Part shown: one piece after another, positions 42,791 through 47,567 of the stretch
Position numbering within the stretch: position 1 is the stretch's first letter
How the letters are laid out: each line of letters starts with the position of its first letter
NCBI RefSeq assembly: GCF_028561755.1
Contig: NZ_JAQQTD010000006.1
Coordinates: 186,001-250,000, forward strand
Direction of reading: 5' to 3'
Length of the DNA stretch: 64,000 bases
Origin: Altibacter sp. HG106
Lineage (GTDB): Bacteria; Bacteroidota; Bacteroidia; Flavobacteriales; Flavobacteriaceae
The notes under the pieces: model-generated
Told to the model about the DNA's origin: nothing
The model's input: the letters and a program-made list of their open reading frames with translations, nothing else
Database searches by the model: none
Program-made: the position numbers and the translations under genes

Positions 42791-44250
42791 TGTTGGAAAT
42801 TCGAAATTACATTAATGGTGTTGAGACCGGTCCCGGAAACGGAACATGGCTGGATGTCATCAACCCGGCACTGGGAGAAGTATATGCCAAGTTGCCCCGT
42901 TCTGGCGAGGCCGACATAGAAACGGCATATAAAGCGGCCGCGGCCGCCTTTCCAACCTGGAGTGACACCACGCTACCAGAACGAAGTCGAATTCTTAGCA
43001 GCATCGCCGATATGATCGAGGAACAATTGATTCCCCTGGCAGAAGCCGAGAGTAAAGACAACGGCAAGCCCCTTTCATTAGCCCTATCTGTAGATATTCC
43101 CAGGGCCTCGGCTAATTTTCGATTTTTCGCGCATGCTATCACGCAGTTTGCTTCGGAAGCACACGAAAGCGTTGGGACACAAACTATGAATTTCACCTTG
43201 CGACAGCCGCTGGGAGTGGTAGGCTGTATTTCTCCCTGGAATCTACCATTATACCTTTTCACATGGAAAATTGCCCCAGCCCTCGCCGCAGGAAATACGG
43301 TGGTAGCGAAACCGAGTGAGGTGACACCGCTTACCAGTTACCTATTAGGAAAAATTTGCACGGAAGCCGGACTTCCAAAAGGGGTGTTAAATATCGTTCA
43401 CGGTCTGGGTAATGAAGCCGGTGAAGCCATTGTGACGCATCCCCAGATCAAAGCGATCTCCTTTACCGGGGGAACAAAAACCGGCGCGCATATTGCCCGC
43501 ACAGCAGCGCCTATGTTCAAAAAATTGTCATTAGAATTAGGCGGCAAAAACCCCAATCTTATTTTTGCCGATTGCGACTATCAAAAGATGCTGGCCACTA
43601 CCGTGCGGTCGTCGTTTGCGAATCAAGGACAAATATGCTTATGTGGGAGTCGGATTTTCGTTCAAGCATCTGTTTACGAACAATTCAAAAAAGATTTTGT
43701 GCAACGGGTTCAACAGTTGGTGGTGGGTGCACCCGAAGCATCGACAACTCAGGTGGGCGCCGTGGTATCGGAAGCCCATCGCGATAAGATCGAAGCGTAC
43801 ATCAAACTTGCGCAAGAAGAAGGAGGCATCCTGCTATGTGGAGGCAACCGGGTATCGGTACCTGATTTTGAGCAGGGGTATTATTTAGAACCTACCGTTA
43901 TCGAGGTAAAGGACAATCAATGTCGCGTGAATCAGGAAGAGATATTTGGTCCCGTTGTCACCTTGATGCCTTTTACCGATGAAGCAGACGCTCTTGAAAA
44001 AGCCAACGCGGTTCGCTACGGTCTATCGGCCACGGTTTGGACACAAAATATTGATACCGCTATGCGCCTCAGCAAAAATCTTGAAGCGGGTGTCGTTTGG
44101 ATCAACACTTGGCTCAATCGCGATCTTCGAACACCGTTTGGCGGCACCAAAGATAGTGGAGTTGGCCGTGAGGGGGGATTTGAAGCCCTCCGGTTTTTTA
44201 CAGAGGCGAAGAATGTGTGCATTCAATATGGGAACGGCAAAACACCTTAA
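42790..44250 (+). CDS. Aldehyde dehydrogenase, probable 2-aminomuconic semialdehyde dehydrogenase
   Basis: A 486-residue NAD-dependent ALDH. It has GCISPWNLPLYLFTWKIAPA, LSLELGGKNPN with the general-base Glu, and NQGQICLCGSRIFV with catalytic Cys283. The C-terminus RTPFGGTKDSGVGREGGFEA is standard. The GQICLCGSR pattern and the operon position fit the AMSDH/NbaE group that oxidises 2-aminomuconate 6-semialdehyde. ATG at 42790 is preferred over the overlapping GTG at 42787. The next gene starts 50 bases later. Confidence 0.85.
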   Translation: MLEIRNYINGVETGPGNGTWLDVINPALGEVYAKLPRSGEADIETAYKAAAAAFPTWSDTTLPERSRILSSIADMIEEQLIPLAEAESKDNGKPLSLALSVDIPRASANFRFFAHAITQFASEAHESVGTQTMNFTLRQPLGVVGCISPWNLPLYLFTWKIAPALAAGNTVVAKPSEVTPLTSYLLGKICTEAGLPKGVLNIVHGLGNEAGEAIVTHPQIKAISFTGGTKTGAHIARTAAPMFKKLSLELGGKNPNLIFADCDYQKMLATTVRSSFANQGQICLCGSRIFVQASVYEQFKKDFVQRVQQLVVGAPEASTTQVGAVVSEAHRDKIEAYIKLAQEEGGILLCGGNRVSVPDFEQGYYLEPTVIEVKDNQCRVNQEEIFGPVVTLMPFTDEADALEKANAVRYGLSATVWTQNIDTAMRLSKNLEAGVVWINTWLNRDLRTPFGGTKDSGVGREGGFEALRFFTEAKNVCIQYGNGKTP

Positions 44251-44300
44251 CTTGTACAATGCTGAGAAAAATAATATCTTAAGGAAAACAAAGAATTGAC

Positions 44301-45086
44301 ATGAATATAGACCTCACTAATAAGAATGCCCTAGTCTGCGGAAGTACCGCAGGTATTGGAAAAGCCACGGCGAAACTCTTCGCAAAACTGGGAGCTACCG
44401 TAACCTTGGTTGCCCGAGACGAAGCGAAGCTGAAAGAAACACTGATTGAATTGCCGCATGAGCAGGGGCAAAAACACAACTATTTTGTGGCTGATTTTTC
44501 AAAGCCGGAAGAAGTCAAAGAGAAGGTTGGAATCGCGGTTGAAAATAAAATTTTTCATATCCTTCTAAACAATACGGGCGGTCCCAAAGGCGGTCCTATT
44601 TTTTCTGCGGAAACCGATGAATTTACAAGGGCCTTTTCACAACACTTAGTCTGTAATCAGATCCTAGTGCAGGCGGTGGTTCCTGGAATGAAAAAAGCCG
44701 ATTACGGTAGAATCATTAATATTATTTCAACCTCGGTGAAACAACCCATTGATGGATTAGGCGTAAGTAATACTATTCGAGGAGCCGTTGCGAATTGGAG
44801 TAAAACCCTGGCCAATGAACTGGGCCCATTTGGAATTACGGTGAACAATGTGCTTCCCGGATTTACAGCGACCGATCGCTTAAAAGATATTGTCGCGGGT
44901 GCTTCCAAGCGTTTTGACAAAACAGAAGAAGAAGCCGCAACGTTTATGAAAAGTCTGGTGCCGGCGCGACGTTTTGCGCAACCCGGGGAAATTGCCAATG
45001 CGGTTGCCTTTCTGGCCAGCGAGGCAGCTAGTTATATCAATGGTATCAATCTTCCGGTGGACGGCGGAAGGACCAAAAGTTTGTAA
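44301..45086 (+). CDS. SDR oxidoreductase with SNxxR in place of YxxxK
   Basis: A 261-residue short-chain dehydrogenase/reductase-like protein. The cofactor motif GSTAGIGKATAKLFAKLGATV is intact, as are NNTGGPKGG and GRIINIIS. The usual catalytic YxxxK is replaced: GLGVSNTIRGAVANWSKTLA has Ser-Asn-x-x-Arg at that position. I recall that a subfamily with this change exists. A function in the lower kynurenine pathway is inferred from position only. It is followed by the structured intergenic element and then by the decarboxylase gene. Confidence 0.82.
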   Translation: MNIDLTNKNALVCGSTAGIGKATAKLFAKLGATVTLVARDEAKLKETLIELPHEQGQKHNYFVADFSKPEEVKEKVGIAVENKIFHILLNNTGGPKGGPIFSAETDEFTRAFSQHLVCNQILVQAVVPGMKKADYGRIINIISTSVKQPIDGLGVSNTIRGAVANWSKTLANELGPFGITVNNVLPGFTATDRLKDIVAGASKRFDKTEEEAATFMKSLVPARRFAQPGEIANAVAFLASEAASYINGINLPVDGGRTKSL

Positions 45087-45091
45087 AAGCA

Positions 45092-45185
45092 GCTGCGTGA
45101 GGGAGTGAAGCGACATCCTTTTTCTGCGGAAAAAGATATAGCGAAACGCCCGACCGCACCGTGACAAAACGGTGGGGGCACGCCC
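45092..45185 (+). ncRNA. Candidate structured RNA/repeat element in the kynurenine operon
   Basis: A compact 94-base element fills the gap between the SDR and ACMSD-like genes. An outer stem GCGTG (45095-45099) pairs with CACGC (45179-45183). Inside are two perfect hairpins: CTTTTTC/GAAAAAG with loop TGCG (45118-45135) and CACCGT/ACGGTG with a six-base loop (45157-45174). Linkers include GAAGCGACATCC and GATATAGCG. The architecture and linker words recall an element I associate with flavobacterial intergenic regions, but I cannot verify its identity. It could be a riboregulator, a processing site or a mobile repeat. Confidence 0.5.
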
Positions 45186-45201
45186 AAAAAAGAACTCATA
45201 T

Positions 45202-46284
45202 ATGAAACGTAAACTACGCATCAACGGGCATTCGCACCTGCTGCCCTATCCAGAAGAGATTCCGCAATTTATGAAAGATAAAGGCATCTTTTGGGTAGAT
45301 AAAGATCGAAAGTTTATGCTTCAGAAAAATTGGAGCAGGCCCGTAACGGATTCCAGTTTTTTTCTTGACGAGAAACTCGCCTGGATGGACCGTTTCAACA
45401 TAGATCACGCGGTCGTGTTAAACCTGTCGCAATTGTACGGAAACGGATTGCGTGTGGAAGAAATGAAACAGGCATTGCGATTTCAGAATGATTTTAATGC
45501 CAAGGTGCAACAAGACAATCCCTCCAAATTTACCTGTGGATTTGTAGTACACCCCGGCTTTGTTCGCGGGGCGCTTTGGGAGATAGAGCGCTGTGTGGAG
45601 GAGTTGGACATGCGCTTGTTGTGTTTGCCTACCCATTATATGGATACCATTGGAACTTGGCGCTGTATTTTCGATGAAGAAAATGAACCTATTTTTGAGC
45701 TTGCCAGCAAGTACAATCTGGCGGTGGAAATTCATCCCTACGACGGCGAGAAATTTATCAAACTGGAAAATACGGCCTGGCGCTTTCACCTTATTTGGAT
45801 GCTCGCCCAATGTGCTGATGCCTATCATTTTTTAACCCTGAACGGTTATGCCGATAAATTCCCCAACATGCGCACCTGCTTTGCCCATGGTGGGCAATTG
45901 GCGCAAATTAACCTGGGAAGACGGATTCAAGGTTTTGATGGCAGGCCCGATCTGTTTGAAGGGAAAGTACACCCGCGTAAATCGGTTGGACATAAAAACA
46001 TCTTCTTCGACACTTTGGTGCACGATACTGGTTCGTTGAAATTATTGGTTGAAAACCAAGGCTCTAAACAAGTTTTGGTAGGATTGGACGACCCGTATCC
46101 CCTGGGTGAAATGGAAAGCGCTCCGCAGTCTTCGTACCCCGGAAAAATCTTAGATCTGGCCAAACAACGCAACATAGTGACTCAAGAAGAAGCCGATGCC
46201 ATGTGGGAAGACAATGTCATCCAGTGGTTGTGCGGTGATGATCAGGATGCCAAGGACTCCTTGGTAAAACGCATATTGTCGTAA
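45202..46284 (+). CDS. Amidohydrolase, probable 2-amino-3-carboxymuconate semialdehyde decarboxylase
   Basis: A 360-residue zinc hydrolase-fold protein matching ACMSD/NbaD. Metal and catalytic residues are the HxH-type NGHSHLLPYP near the start, LPTHYMDTIG, EIHPYDGEKF, TCFAHGGQLAQ and the late aspartate in VLVGLDDPYPLGE. ACMSD turns the ring-opening product of 3-hydroxyanthranilate into 2-aminomuconate semialdehyde. ATG at 45202 places the metal motif at the usual distance; an upstream in-frame GTG at 45172 would start inside the structured element. The end overlaps the next gene by one base (TAATG). Confidence 0.88.
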   Translation: MKRKLRINGHSHLLPYPEEIPQFMKDKGIFWVDKDRKFMLQKNWSRPVTDSSFFLDEKLAWMDRFNIDHAVVLNLSQLYGNGLRVEEMKQALRFQNDFNAKVQQDNPSKFTCGFVVHPGFVRGALWEIERCVEELDMRLLCLPTHYMDTIGTWRCIFDEENEPIFELASKYNLAVEIHPYDGEKFIKLENTAWRFHLIWMLAQCADAYHFLTLNGYADKFPNMRTCFAHGGQLAQINLGRRIQGFDGRPDLFEGKVHPRKSVGHKNIFFDTLVHDTGSLKLLVENQGSKQVLVGLDDPYPLGEMESAPQSSYPGKILDLAKQRNIVTQEEADAMWEDNVIQWLCGDDQDAKDSLVKRILS

Positions 46285-46925
46285 TGGATTTTATCCCGGA
46301 AAATATTAGCAACTATGCCGAGGCACACAGTGCAAAAGAGCCGGAACTCTTACAGGAATTACAGCGAGAGACCTGGTTGAAGGTACTAGCACCACGCATG
46401 CTAAGTGGGCATCTACAAGGTCGGTTTTTAAGCCTCCTTGCTAAACTTATTCGGCCGCGTCATATACTTGAAATTGGGACATATACGGGGTATTCGGCGC
46501 TCTGCCTGGCGGAAGGCATGACGCGTGATGGCAGCCTTCATACTATTGACCACAACGAAGAACTGTACGATTTTCAGCGACGGTATTTCGATCGATCGGC
46601 CTATGGAGATCGCATCATACAACATGTGGGCAATGCTTTGGACATCATCCCCACCTTGTCTGTGGCTTTCGATTTGGTCTTTATTGATGCCGACAAACAC
46701 AATTACCCAAACTATCTTGAACTCTTAGTGCCAGCATTACCAAGTGGAGCGGTGATTTTATCAGACAATGTATTGTGGAGCGGGAAAGTGACCCAAAGGG
46801 TGAAAGAAGACGACCGAGATACACAGGCCTTAATTGCCTATAATAAACTTCTTAACGAACATCCTAAGCTGGAAACGGTGCTACTTCCGATTCGAGACGG
46901 ACTAAGTATCGCCAGAGTGCGCTAA
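46284..46925 (+). CDS. O-methyltransferase family protein (CCoAOMT type)
   Basis: A 213-residue SAM-dependent O-methyltransferase of the cation-dependent catechol/CCoA type. It has ILEIGTYTGYSALCLAEG, TIDHNEE, FDLVFIDADKHNYPNYLEL with the metal aspartate, and ILSDNVLWSGKV. Its acceptor is not known; such enzymes act on catechols and related aromatics, so catabolic intermediates or a stress-related catechol are possible. It ends the operon, abutting the convergent response regulator gene. Confidence 0.85.
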   Translation: MDFIPENISNYAEAHSAKEPELLQELQRETWLKVLAPRMLSGHLQGRFLSLLAKLIRPRHILEIGTYTGYSALCLAEGMTRDGSLHTIDHNEELYDFQRRYFDRSAYGDRIIQHVGNALDIIPTLSVAFDLVFIDADKHNYPNYLELLVPALPSGAVILSDNVLWSGKVTQRVKEDDRDTQALIAYNKLLNEHPKLETVLLPIRDGLSIARVR

Positions 46926-47567
46926 TCAGGGAATGAATAATTTGTGTTTAATGGCGTAAATCACCAGCCCGGTTCGGTTGCGTAGATTCAGTTTTTCGAA
47001 GATAGAATTTCGGTATCCCTCAATGGTTTTTGGGCTAAGACACATCACATCGGCAATTTCTTTATACGTCATTTCGGTACAGGCATGCTTGATGAATTCT
47101 AGTTCTCGTTCCTTTAATAAGGTTTCCGGAGATTGCTTTTCTGAAAGTGAATCCACGAGAATTTTCGCCACCGTATTGGTGTGATAGTAGCCTTTTTGAA
47201 TGACTTCGGTAAGTGCCTGTTTTAATTCTCCCTTTCTAACATCCTTCAACAAATAACCCTTGGCACCCGATCGCAACATTTTGAGTATGGTGGCTTCATC
47301 TTCTTCTATGGAAAGCGCCAACACATGTACTTGCGAGAAATTTTGGTGAAGATGCTGGGTCGTTTCAATCCCGTTCATGATGGGCATATTGACATCCATT
47401 AAGACCACATCGGGTATGTTCTTTGGAGCTTTGAACTTTTCGATCAGCTCAGTTCCGTTGCGACAGGTGTATAGGACCGAAAAGTTCTCAAATTCATTGA
47501 CCAAACTTCCCAGTGCCTGCGATAAGAGTTGATGATCATCTACAATGACAACCGAATAATTCATCAC
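46926..47567 (-). CDS. Response regulator, NarL/FixJ type
   Basis: A 213-residue regulator with a receiver domain (Asp58 in DVVLMDVNMP; DD at 10-11; Lys in KGYLLKDV) and a LuxR-type helix-turn-helix at the C-terminus (EMTYKEIADVMCLSPKTIEGYRNSIFEKL). The partner histidine kinase gene overlaps upstream by four bases (ATGA). Targets are not visible in this window. It is convergent with the O-methyltransferase gene with no spacer. Confidence 0.93.
   Translation of the reverse strand: MMNYSVVIVDDHQLLSQALGSLVNEFENFSVLYTCRNGTELIEKFKAPKNIPDVVLMDVNMPIMNGIETTQHLHQNFSQVHVLALSIEEDEATILKMLRSGAKGYLLKDVRKGELKQALTEVIQKGYYHTNTVAKILVDSLSEKQSPETLLKERELEFIKHACTEMTYKEIADVMCLSPKTIEGYRNSIFEKLNLRNRTGLVIYAIKHKLFIP

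Follow-up and report, generated by a model that had tools for sequence, protein, structure and literature searches.

Flavo-1 was listed for Bacteroidetes by Weinberg et al. (2010), being entered in Table 1 of that study (PMC2864571) with 'y' as an RNA and 'n' both as a cis-regulatory element and as a switch. Rfam holds the family as RF01705, under the type 'Gene; sRNA'. In the transcriptome of Flavobacterium psychrophilum, several transcribed 5' regions overlap Flavo-1 matches, while matches lie sense or antisense alike and many fall beyond transcribed regions; no functional clue for the family was derived in that study (PMC9723704). Flavo-1 is also included in a table of abundant sRNA families, in which its function column is blank (PMC9029176), and is one of the test families in PMC3765529.

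A scan of the whole 64,000-nucleotide stretch analyzed here (the window) with cmscan returned a single family at its gathering threshold, RF01705 Flavo-1, with 44.3 bits against a threshold of 42. The match covers positions 45087 to 45159 on the plus strand, corresponding to the core P2 arm and its flanks. The conserved core arm with its internal loops is present, as judged from the Rfam alignment and covariation, and the host belongs to the Bacteroidota. The element is therefore a member of the known Flavo-1 family, in a fuller architecture than that of the library model. With a probability of roughly one half, we read this full-length, three-way-junction form of Flavo-1 as a dispersed intergenic repeat of Bacteroidota, similar to REP/BIME or BOX elements, that is read as a folded single strand.

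Structure and position of the window copy

The element is located in a gene cluster containing a kynureninase (TIGR01814, 1.9e-137), together with a FAD-binding protein, a Ribonuc_L-PSP (RidA-type) protein, an aldehyde dehydrogenase, an SDR and an O-methyltransferase. Upstream lies the SDR-family gene (44301 to 45086, plus strand; PF13561, 1e-41). Downstream lies a gene (45202 to 46284, plus strand, ATG at 45202) named ACMSD-like in the original prediction, for which neither Pfam (at 1e-10) nor NCBIfam (at 1e-30) gave a match. The 115 non-coding bases between the end of the SDR gene and this ATG stand out as predicted, since the remaining junctions between 39709 and 46284 measure at most 50 bases or overlap. 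The element begins 6 bases past the SDR gene, stops 14 bases short of the ATG and is co-directional with both genes.

The ACMSD-like gene is present in 23 of the 60 genomes searched, this genome (G000) counted. By eye, the SDR-ACMSD-like order occurs among these 23 loci only in G000, its congener G012 and G027, a genome of another genus in the same family. In many of the loci (L042, L045, L051 and others) the ACMSD-like gene is preceded by another gene, whose C-terminus we take to resemble that of 3-hydroxyanthranilate dioxygenase.

The whole element, of the architecture designated type B below, extends from 45093 to 45187 on the plus strand, where it matches positions 1-88 of 88 of R1 with 96.4 bits. 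R1 is a covariance model representing the entire unit, for which five copies from G000 and G012 were used; these five match by construction, and the score of the window copy, being one of the sequences from which R1 was built, is partly circular. The ends at 45093 and 45187 coincide with a drop in copy-to-copy identity, which also marks the terminus CCCAA (45183-45187). RNA folding of the strand from 45085 to 45200 yields -37.3 kcal/mol (z -2.94), a value that 3 of 200 dinucleotide shuffles equal or undercut. The predicted fold is a three-way junction in which the outer stem, P1, encloses a long arm, P2, interrupted by two 3x3 internal loops, and a hairpin, P3.

The outer GCGTG/CACGC stem had been predicted correctly, both words being found at 45095-45099 (P1 5' strand) and 45179-45183 (P1 3' strand) in mutual pairing; all five P1 pairs show double changes in an alignment of 104 matches described below. 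Likewise, the two inner hairpins CTTTTTCTGCGGAAAAAG and CACCGTGACAAAACGGTG and the quoted linkers are all found between the P1 strands. While the letters of these linkers are right, their designation is not: they lie in both strands of the lower P2 arm, and because they pair, the element takes the shape of a three-way junction. The P2 arm (45101 to 45151), supported by folding, covariation and RNAalifold, comprises in its lower part GGG/CCC, GU/AC, a 3x3 loop GAA/GAA, GC/GC, a 3x3 loop GAC/AUA and AUC/GAU. Folding and covariation also support the upper P2 stem (45119-45124 with 45129-45134, closing the loop 45125-45128) and the P3 hairpin (45154 to 45177), whose letters are rewritten with pairing kept in the G012 ortholog. 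All of these features lie on the plus strand.

Distribution and covariation

The original prediction supposed that other flavobacteria contain similar words, and the Rfam model bears this out. Flavo-1 was detected in 123 of 199 genomes of the same family at E ≤ 0.001, G000 included, and above the cut-off in 116 of them, with the per-genome copy numbers of this survey being lower bounds, since scoring stopped at 22 candidates. None of 14 control genomes exceeded the cut-off, and five had sub-cut-off matches at E ≤ 1. Using R1 at E ≤ 1, 13 matches were found in G000, 14 in G012, one in G027, 75 in G033 (another genome of the family) and 30 in G175; 59 (58 distinct) of the 70-75 matches in G033 and 23 of the 30 in G175 were examined. 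At E ≤ 0.001, R1 matched 70 times in G033 and 29 times in its congener G222. At E ≤ 1 in G000, the Rfam model gave 6 matches as against the 13 of R1. False R1 matches do occur: four with 22.6-34.0 bits (best E 1.2e-4), all on the GC-rich viral contig L311, were judged to be due to chance. The single G027 match (31.9 bits) is therefore uncertain, and the low-scoring G000 copies (31-45 bits) are backed additionally by G012 orthologs.

Beyond the family, R1 matched at E ≤ 1e-6, under strict filters and with scoring limited to 22 candidates in each genome, in at least 21 of 198 genomes across the phylum, comprising 12 of the same family, one other of the order, seven others of the class and one outside the class. 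The core pattern AGGGATNGNAGCGGCATCC occurs in at least 118 stretches of named genomes, 100 of which were carried forward. Among the matches listed, the titles name Flavobacteriales, Bacteroidales, Chitinophagaceae, Sphingobacteriales, Cytophagales and other Bacteroidota, with one exception, a MAG labelled Bellilinea (L215), which by eye is a chance pattern match containing no element. Copies are many in some genomes and none was detected in others.

Two architectures can be distinguished: type A, lacking P3 (TTTAGCC...GGGAAATAGCT), and type B, with P3 (TTGCGTT...AACGCCCAA), to which the window copy belongs. In G000 and G012, one outer frame is combined with several inner arms. The type-B frame was seen with other inner arms (e.g. 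GAGGCATTGTGGGAGCTC or AGCTACCGTGTA) at L240, L243, L116 and their orthologs in G000 and G012, as well as in the viral locus L445.

The three-way-junction fold is conserved, with covariation in all three arms, P1, P2 and P3, as a covariance check proposed with the original prediction was to determine. In the alignment of 104 matches from named genomes, 97.0% of cells are paired versus 80.3% after shuffling (0 of 500 shuffles reach the observed value) and double changes occur in 25 of 28 pairs, while shifting the partner reduces pairing to 33-52%. Pair P2e (columns 14/147), for instance, is found as AU 43, UA 37, GC 15 and CG 5 times. The 27 copies of G000 and G012 are 96.5% paired, again with double changes in 25 of 28 pairs. 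Both alignments were fitted to the covariance model and hence lean toward it; RNAalifold, run on an unfitted MAFFT alignment of 34 copies, returned the same three-way junction with double changes in 17 of 24 pairs. Many rows of the 104-match and 34-copy alignments were obtained through a pattern fixing AGGGAT-G-AGCGGCATCC, so that constancy there is by construction; the fixed letters do not affect P1, pair P2e, the upper P2 stem or P3. Similar elements were found elsewhere, their base pairs covary, and a purely coding explanation, also considered, was not borne out.

Paired changes are also seen at orthologous sites. The window copies of G000 and G012 differ in their P3 hairpins, each of which still pairs, and two G033 sites differ from their G222 counterparts in core pairs, with G-C versus A-T and T-A versus C-G. 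Such retention of the fold speaks for a function under selection and against a passive repeat, although gene conversion among copies could be an alternative source of the paired changes.

The distribution of non-canonical pairs bears on which strand folds. In core pairs with little alignment doubt, 3160 cells are Watson-Crick, 36 G-U, 10 A-C and 32 other, after removal of the outermost P1 pair of alignment A3 (29 G-U, 1 A-C) and of viral rows L311, L315, L316, L324, L326 and L333. The predominance of G-U over A-C among changed pairs suggests that the annotated strand folds, and not its complement; the size of the excess is uncertain, since the model favours G-U and the copies are related. Divided by orientation, G-U and A-C pairs number 21 and 1 in sense copies and 35 and 11 in antisense copies.

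A fold of this kind could in principle be kept without any reader, if quasi-palindromic repeats were held in pairing by template-switch correction. The complete rewriting of P3 and of the loops between orthologous copies, with pairing still good, would fit such a process, as would the rarity of G-U pairs (about 1-2% of cells). On the other hand, the 3x3 loops stay unpaired, whereas template switching would be expected to erase them, and on their 3' side A46, A48 and A53 are invariant in 34 copies, the 5' loop letters being uninformative, since many of these copies were retrieved with a pattern that included them. Strand asymmetry would also be unexpected, and we consider this explanation highly improbable.

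Gene direction, spread and persistence

Among 212 distinct copies, the 121 in tandem gaps comprise 57 in sense and 64 in antisense orientation (p 0.59), as based on ORFs called by a simple script rather than a gene finder; the others lie in convergent (31) or divergent (23) gaps, inside an ORF (2) or at locus edges (35). An earlier, looser tandem count gave 48 sense and 58 antisense copies. The proportions of the gap types are no different from those of a G175 background (p 0.23). Copies tend toward gene 3' ends, lying within 30 bases of a 3' end in 71 of 183 cases and of a 5' end in 33 of 167. Fold conservation is as indifferent to gene direction as location is, pairing being 0.976 in sense and 0.974 in antisense copies (p 0.30), and 0.973 in both the 23 sense and the 28 antisense copies in short, probably operonic gaps. 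In G175, a hand count assigned about 10 copies to the leading and 13 to the lagging strand; as the GC-skew sample was noisy and the start of the contig was taken for the origin, these figures say nothing about a replichore bias. The equal pairing of sense and antisense copies argues against a function in read-through mRNA, as sense copies should otherwise be better kept, and points to single-stranded DNA, or a transcript from the element's own promoter, as the working form.

The original prediction had proposed either a conserved riboregulator or a mobile repeat. The element is indeed conserved, structured and dispersed, with fairly precise ends, but a role as cis-riboregulator of the operon is unsupported, because the copies ignore orientation, antisense copies are equally well paired, and in G027, where the ACMSD-like protein is 92% identical and the SDR gene also lies upstream, the junction is free of the element. 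Cis-regulation of the kynurenine operon was rejected on these grounds; copies are not predominantly sense and upstream of regulated genes, as those of a leader or riboswitch would be. Nothing points to specificity for kynurenine genes, and the context looks incidental.

A related possibility is that the three-way junction acts within the polycistronic mRNA, stabilizing it or setting a processing point between the SDR and ACMSD-like parts. Co-direction with both genes, the placement within 6 and 14 bases of them, the G-U over A-C asymmetry, which fits RNA, and the retention of the G012 orthologous copy with paired changes would all agree with such a role. Given the frequency and equal pairing of antisense copies, the element-free G027 junction and the F. 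psychrophilum matches, which lie sense and antisense alike and in many cases beyond transcribed regions (PMC9723704), we nevertheless consider it unlikely. A family of independent, trans-acting small RNA genes would match the Rfam type and the inclusion of Flavo-1 among abundant sRNA families in the table of PMC9029176. Yet the 12 bases 5' of the element are T-rich and share no motif, one genome (G033) carries at least 70 copies, occurrence is patchy between relatives and transcription is inconsistent (PMC9723704), making this interpretation very unlikely.

Evidence on how copies spread comes mainly from G033, in which 32 copy pairs are at least 90% identical with flanks that are unlike on at least one side (25 of the 32 were inspected; one pair resembling each other on both sides was excluded). 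Just outside TTG and CCCAA, mean identity drops to 0.3-0.7, reaching 0.3-0.4 farther out, and A is preferred at position +1 outside the element (80-96% in four sets). As in MITEs, ends are precise, flanks unrelated and empty sites present, except that at least four of the 25 pairs share an upstream flank (e.g. L256/L269), which indicates a contribution of segmental duplication. When four G033 sites were examined in G222, the element was present at three and absent from the fourth, where the stretch lacking, about 200 bases, exceeds the length of the element. Together with the shared flanks in G033, this gap indicates that larger pieces are also duplicated or deleted. No target-site duplication was readable at the G027 junction or the G222 site, where empty and filled flanks are too diverged. 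All 13 G000 copies have a G012 ortholog, accounting for 13 of the 14 G012 copies, which indicates that no recent movement took place there. The coexistence of filled and empty sites with copies shared at orthologous positions implies that the family rarely spreads or is lost and persists long at its sites.

As a possible source of mobility, Y1 transposases (PF01797) were searched; this was the only transposase type covered and no partner was found. At E ≤ 1e-5, 62 of 199 family genomes contain a match, with none in G000 or G012. Across genomes, 50 have both Flavo-1 and Y1, 73 Flavo-1 only, 12 Y1 only and 64 neither (Fisher p 2.6e-4), and more scored Flavo-1 copies occur in Y1 genomes (p 0.005), an association that makes a Y1 link possible. 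However, 17 of 27 genomes with at least 15 counted Flavo-1 matches have no Y1, and only one of 30 Y1 loci (1.5 kb flanks where the contig allows) contains the element, by R1 and by Rfam alike. The family does not display the REP/RAYT arrangement of a Y1 TnpA_REP gene flanked by the element, and with no Y1 match in G000 as well, a Y1/RAYT partner was rejected. At L078 (1290-1400), a Y1 locus has CCCGTAGGGA-type repeats of its own, plausibly a REP/RAYT pair unrelated to Flavo-1.

Under the preferred reading, a dispersed repeat read as a folded single strand, the fold would be recognized in its single-stranded form by a putative reader protein; ssDNA arising in replication, recombination or transfer is a more probable substrate than read-through mRNA. 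The family would spread when, on rare occasions, the unit bounded by TTG(CGTT) and (AACG)CCCAA is copied. The window copy would have entered before the split of this species and its congener, or else have been lost in the neighbouring genus. At present it would serve as a structured spacer, inherited vertically, and would influence expression of the downstream gene only incidentally, if at all.

Viral copies and comparison with known repeats

When viral contigs were first scanned with a pattern, 21 stretches were obtained, of which by eye 17 are elements and four chance matches. R1 at E ≤ 1 recognizes 13 of the 17, three of them weakly (22-26 bits), leaving L309, L310, L318 and L321 unmatched. 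Two more contigs came from a second viral pattern, L383 with a full copy and L380 with a partial one. Over both scans, L308, L311, L317, L323, L381, L382 and L384 were set aside by eye as chance pattern matches. The Rfam model exceeds its gathering score in 8 of 15 viral loci.

The viral elements form about 13 non-redundant groups, L322 and L328 being kept separate despite 90%-identical neighbours. In 10 of the 13 groups, two of which (L309, L310, L318, L321) rest on judgement by eye, the element lies antisense just 3' of a terminase-large-like gene of 527-579 aa, starting about 0-72 bases past its stop where R1 gives a position. L312, L320 and L383 are the exceptions. Against PHROG 2 (terminase large subunit), three of nine neighbour proteins gave matches at E ≤ 0.01 (2e-4, 7e-16 and 8e-8), none has a Pfam match at that threshold, and ten such proteins are mutually homologous with 22-90% identity. 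The antisense element at the terminase-like 3' end was observed in L313, L314, L318, L319, L322, L325, L327, L309 and L331; in L313, L314, L318, L325 and L327, 440-640 bases separate the element from the next ORF called upstream of it.

Among 81 loci with relatives of the terminase-like gene, five have an R1 match (E ≤ 1), all antisense at the 3' end. Three of these were known before; the two new ones, L445 (55.9 bits) and L428 (29.9 bits), both showed the frame on reading. An earlier set of relatives had R1 matches in 3 of 49 loci, all known before, and further relatives retrieved with single-protein queries were few or mostly without the element. The viral element is thus patchy among terminase relatives, yet fixed in side and direction. 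Short viral contigs are often recognized through their terminase, a bias that inflates the adjacency; it leaves the constancy of side and direction unexplained.

By eye, a CATATA/CATATT-type motif, with a GC-rich word such as AGGGCGGTGCGGG some tens of bases after it, is seen repeatedly 3' of the terminase-like gene (L313, L322, L331, several of L348-L378 and of L431-L507), in phages both with and without the element. This zone is possibly a packaging site. L312, a viral contig of 4750 bases with Flavo-1 above the gathering score, is presumably, by its pilot protein, a microvirus-like (single-stranded DNA) genome. A full-text search of the literature for a terminase-linked structured RNA in Bacteroides phages found none.

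These observations raise the question whether the terminase-linked copies are the primary ones, the fold being an ssDNA or RNA site for a process common to phages and hosts, such as packaging, strand initiation or recombination. The recurrent antisense position in 10 of 13 groups, the above-threshold Rfam scores, the probable packaging zone that follows the element and the copy in a presumably microvirus-like contig are in favour. Patchiness among terminase relatives (5 of 81 and 3 of 49 loci), the recognition bias toward terminases, two groups judged by eye without an R1 match at E ≤ 1 and the lack of a match to INPHARED phages or PLSDB plasmids for one 85-base consensus query weigh against it, and we regard it as doubtful. 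Positions 43000-47000 of the window likewise gave no plasmid match. Still more speculative is the idea that Flavo-1 is a single-strand recognition site of Bacteroidota chromosomes and phages on which one and the same protein acts, in packaging, transfer or a new form of ssDNA transposition; were this so, phages would keep one antisense copy at the terminase 3' end beside a probable packaging zone.

Among the structured elements of Bacteroidota, Flavo-1 is a frequent orphan that carries an sRNA annotation. To this, the present analysis adds the full three-way-junction unit with its fairly precise ends, a single folding strand, the irrelevance of gene direction even to conservation of the fold, and a fixed place in some phages, which together shift the search for a function from sRNA biology toward a reader of single strands.

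The window copy shares with RF01705 the core arm, the internal-loop sequence (GAAGCGGCATCC / GATATAGCGGA type), the Bacteroidota host and a score above gathering. The Rfam model, with 76 positions covering the core arm and flanks, lacks P3 and the closing stem P1, both of which are present here, and, unlike that core model, the outer frame in G000 is joined to several different inner arms. The likeness to REP/BIME elements with their RAYT (Y1) transposases lies in being dispersed, intergenic, near gene 3' ends, folded as one strand and orientation-neutral. In contrast, Flavo-1 forms a larger three-way junction, this genome has no Y1 match, and the sole Y1 locus carrying a Flavo-1 element has separate CCCGTAGGGA-type repeats. 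With MITEs, such as that of P. gingivalis, Flavo-1 has in common that it is a short, non-autonomous repeat with imperfect terminal inverted repeats (TTG-CGTT / AACG-CCCAA), whereas no target duplication or parental transposon is visible. BOX/ERIC-type repeats are similarly modular and structured, combining variable inner with constant outer parts.
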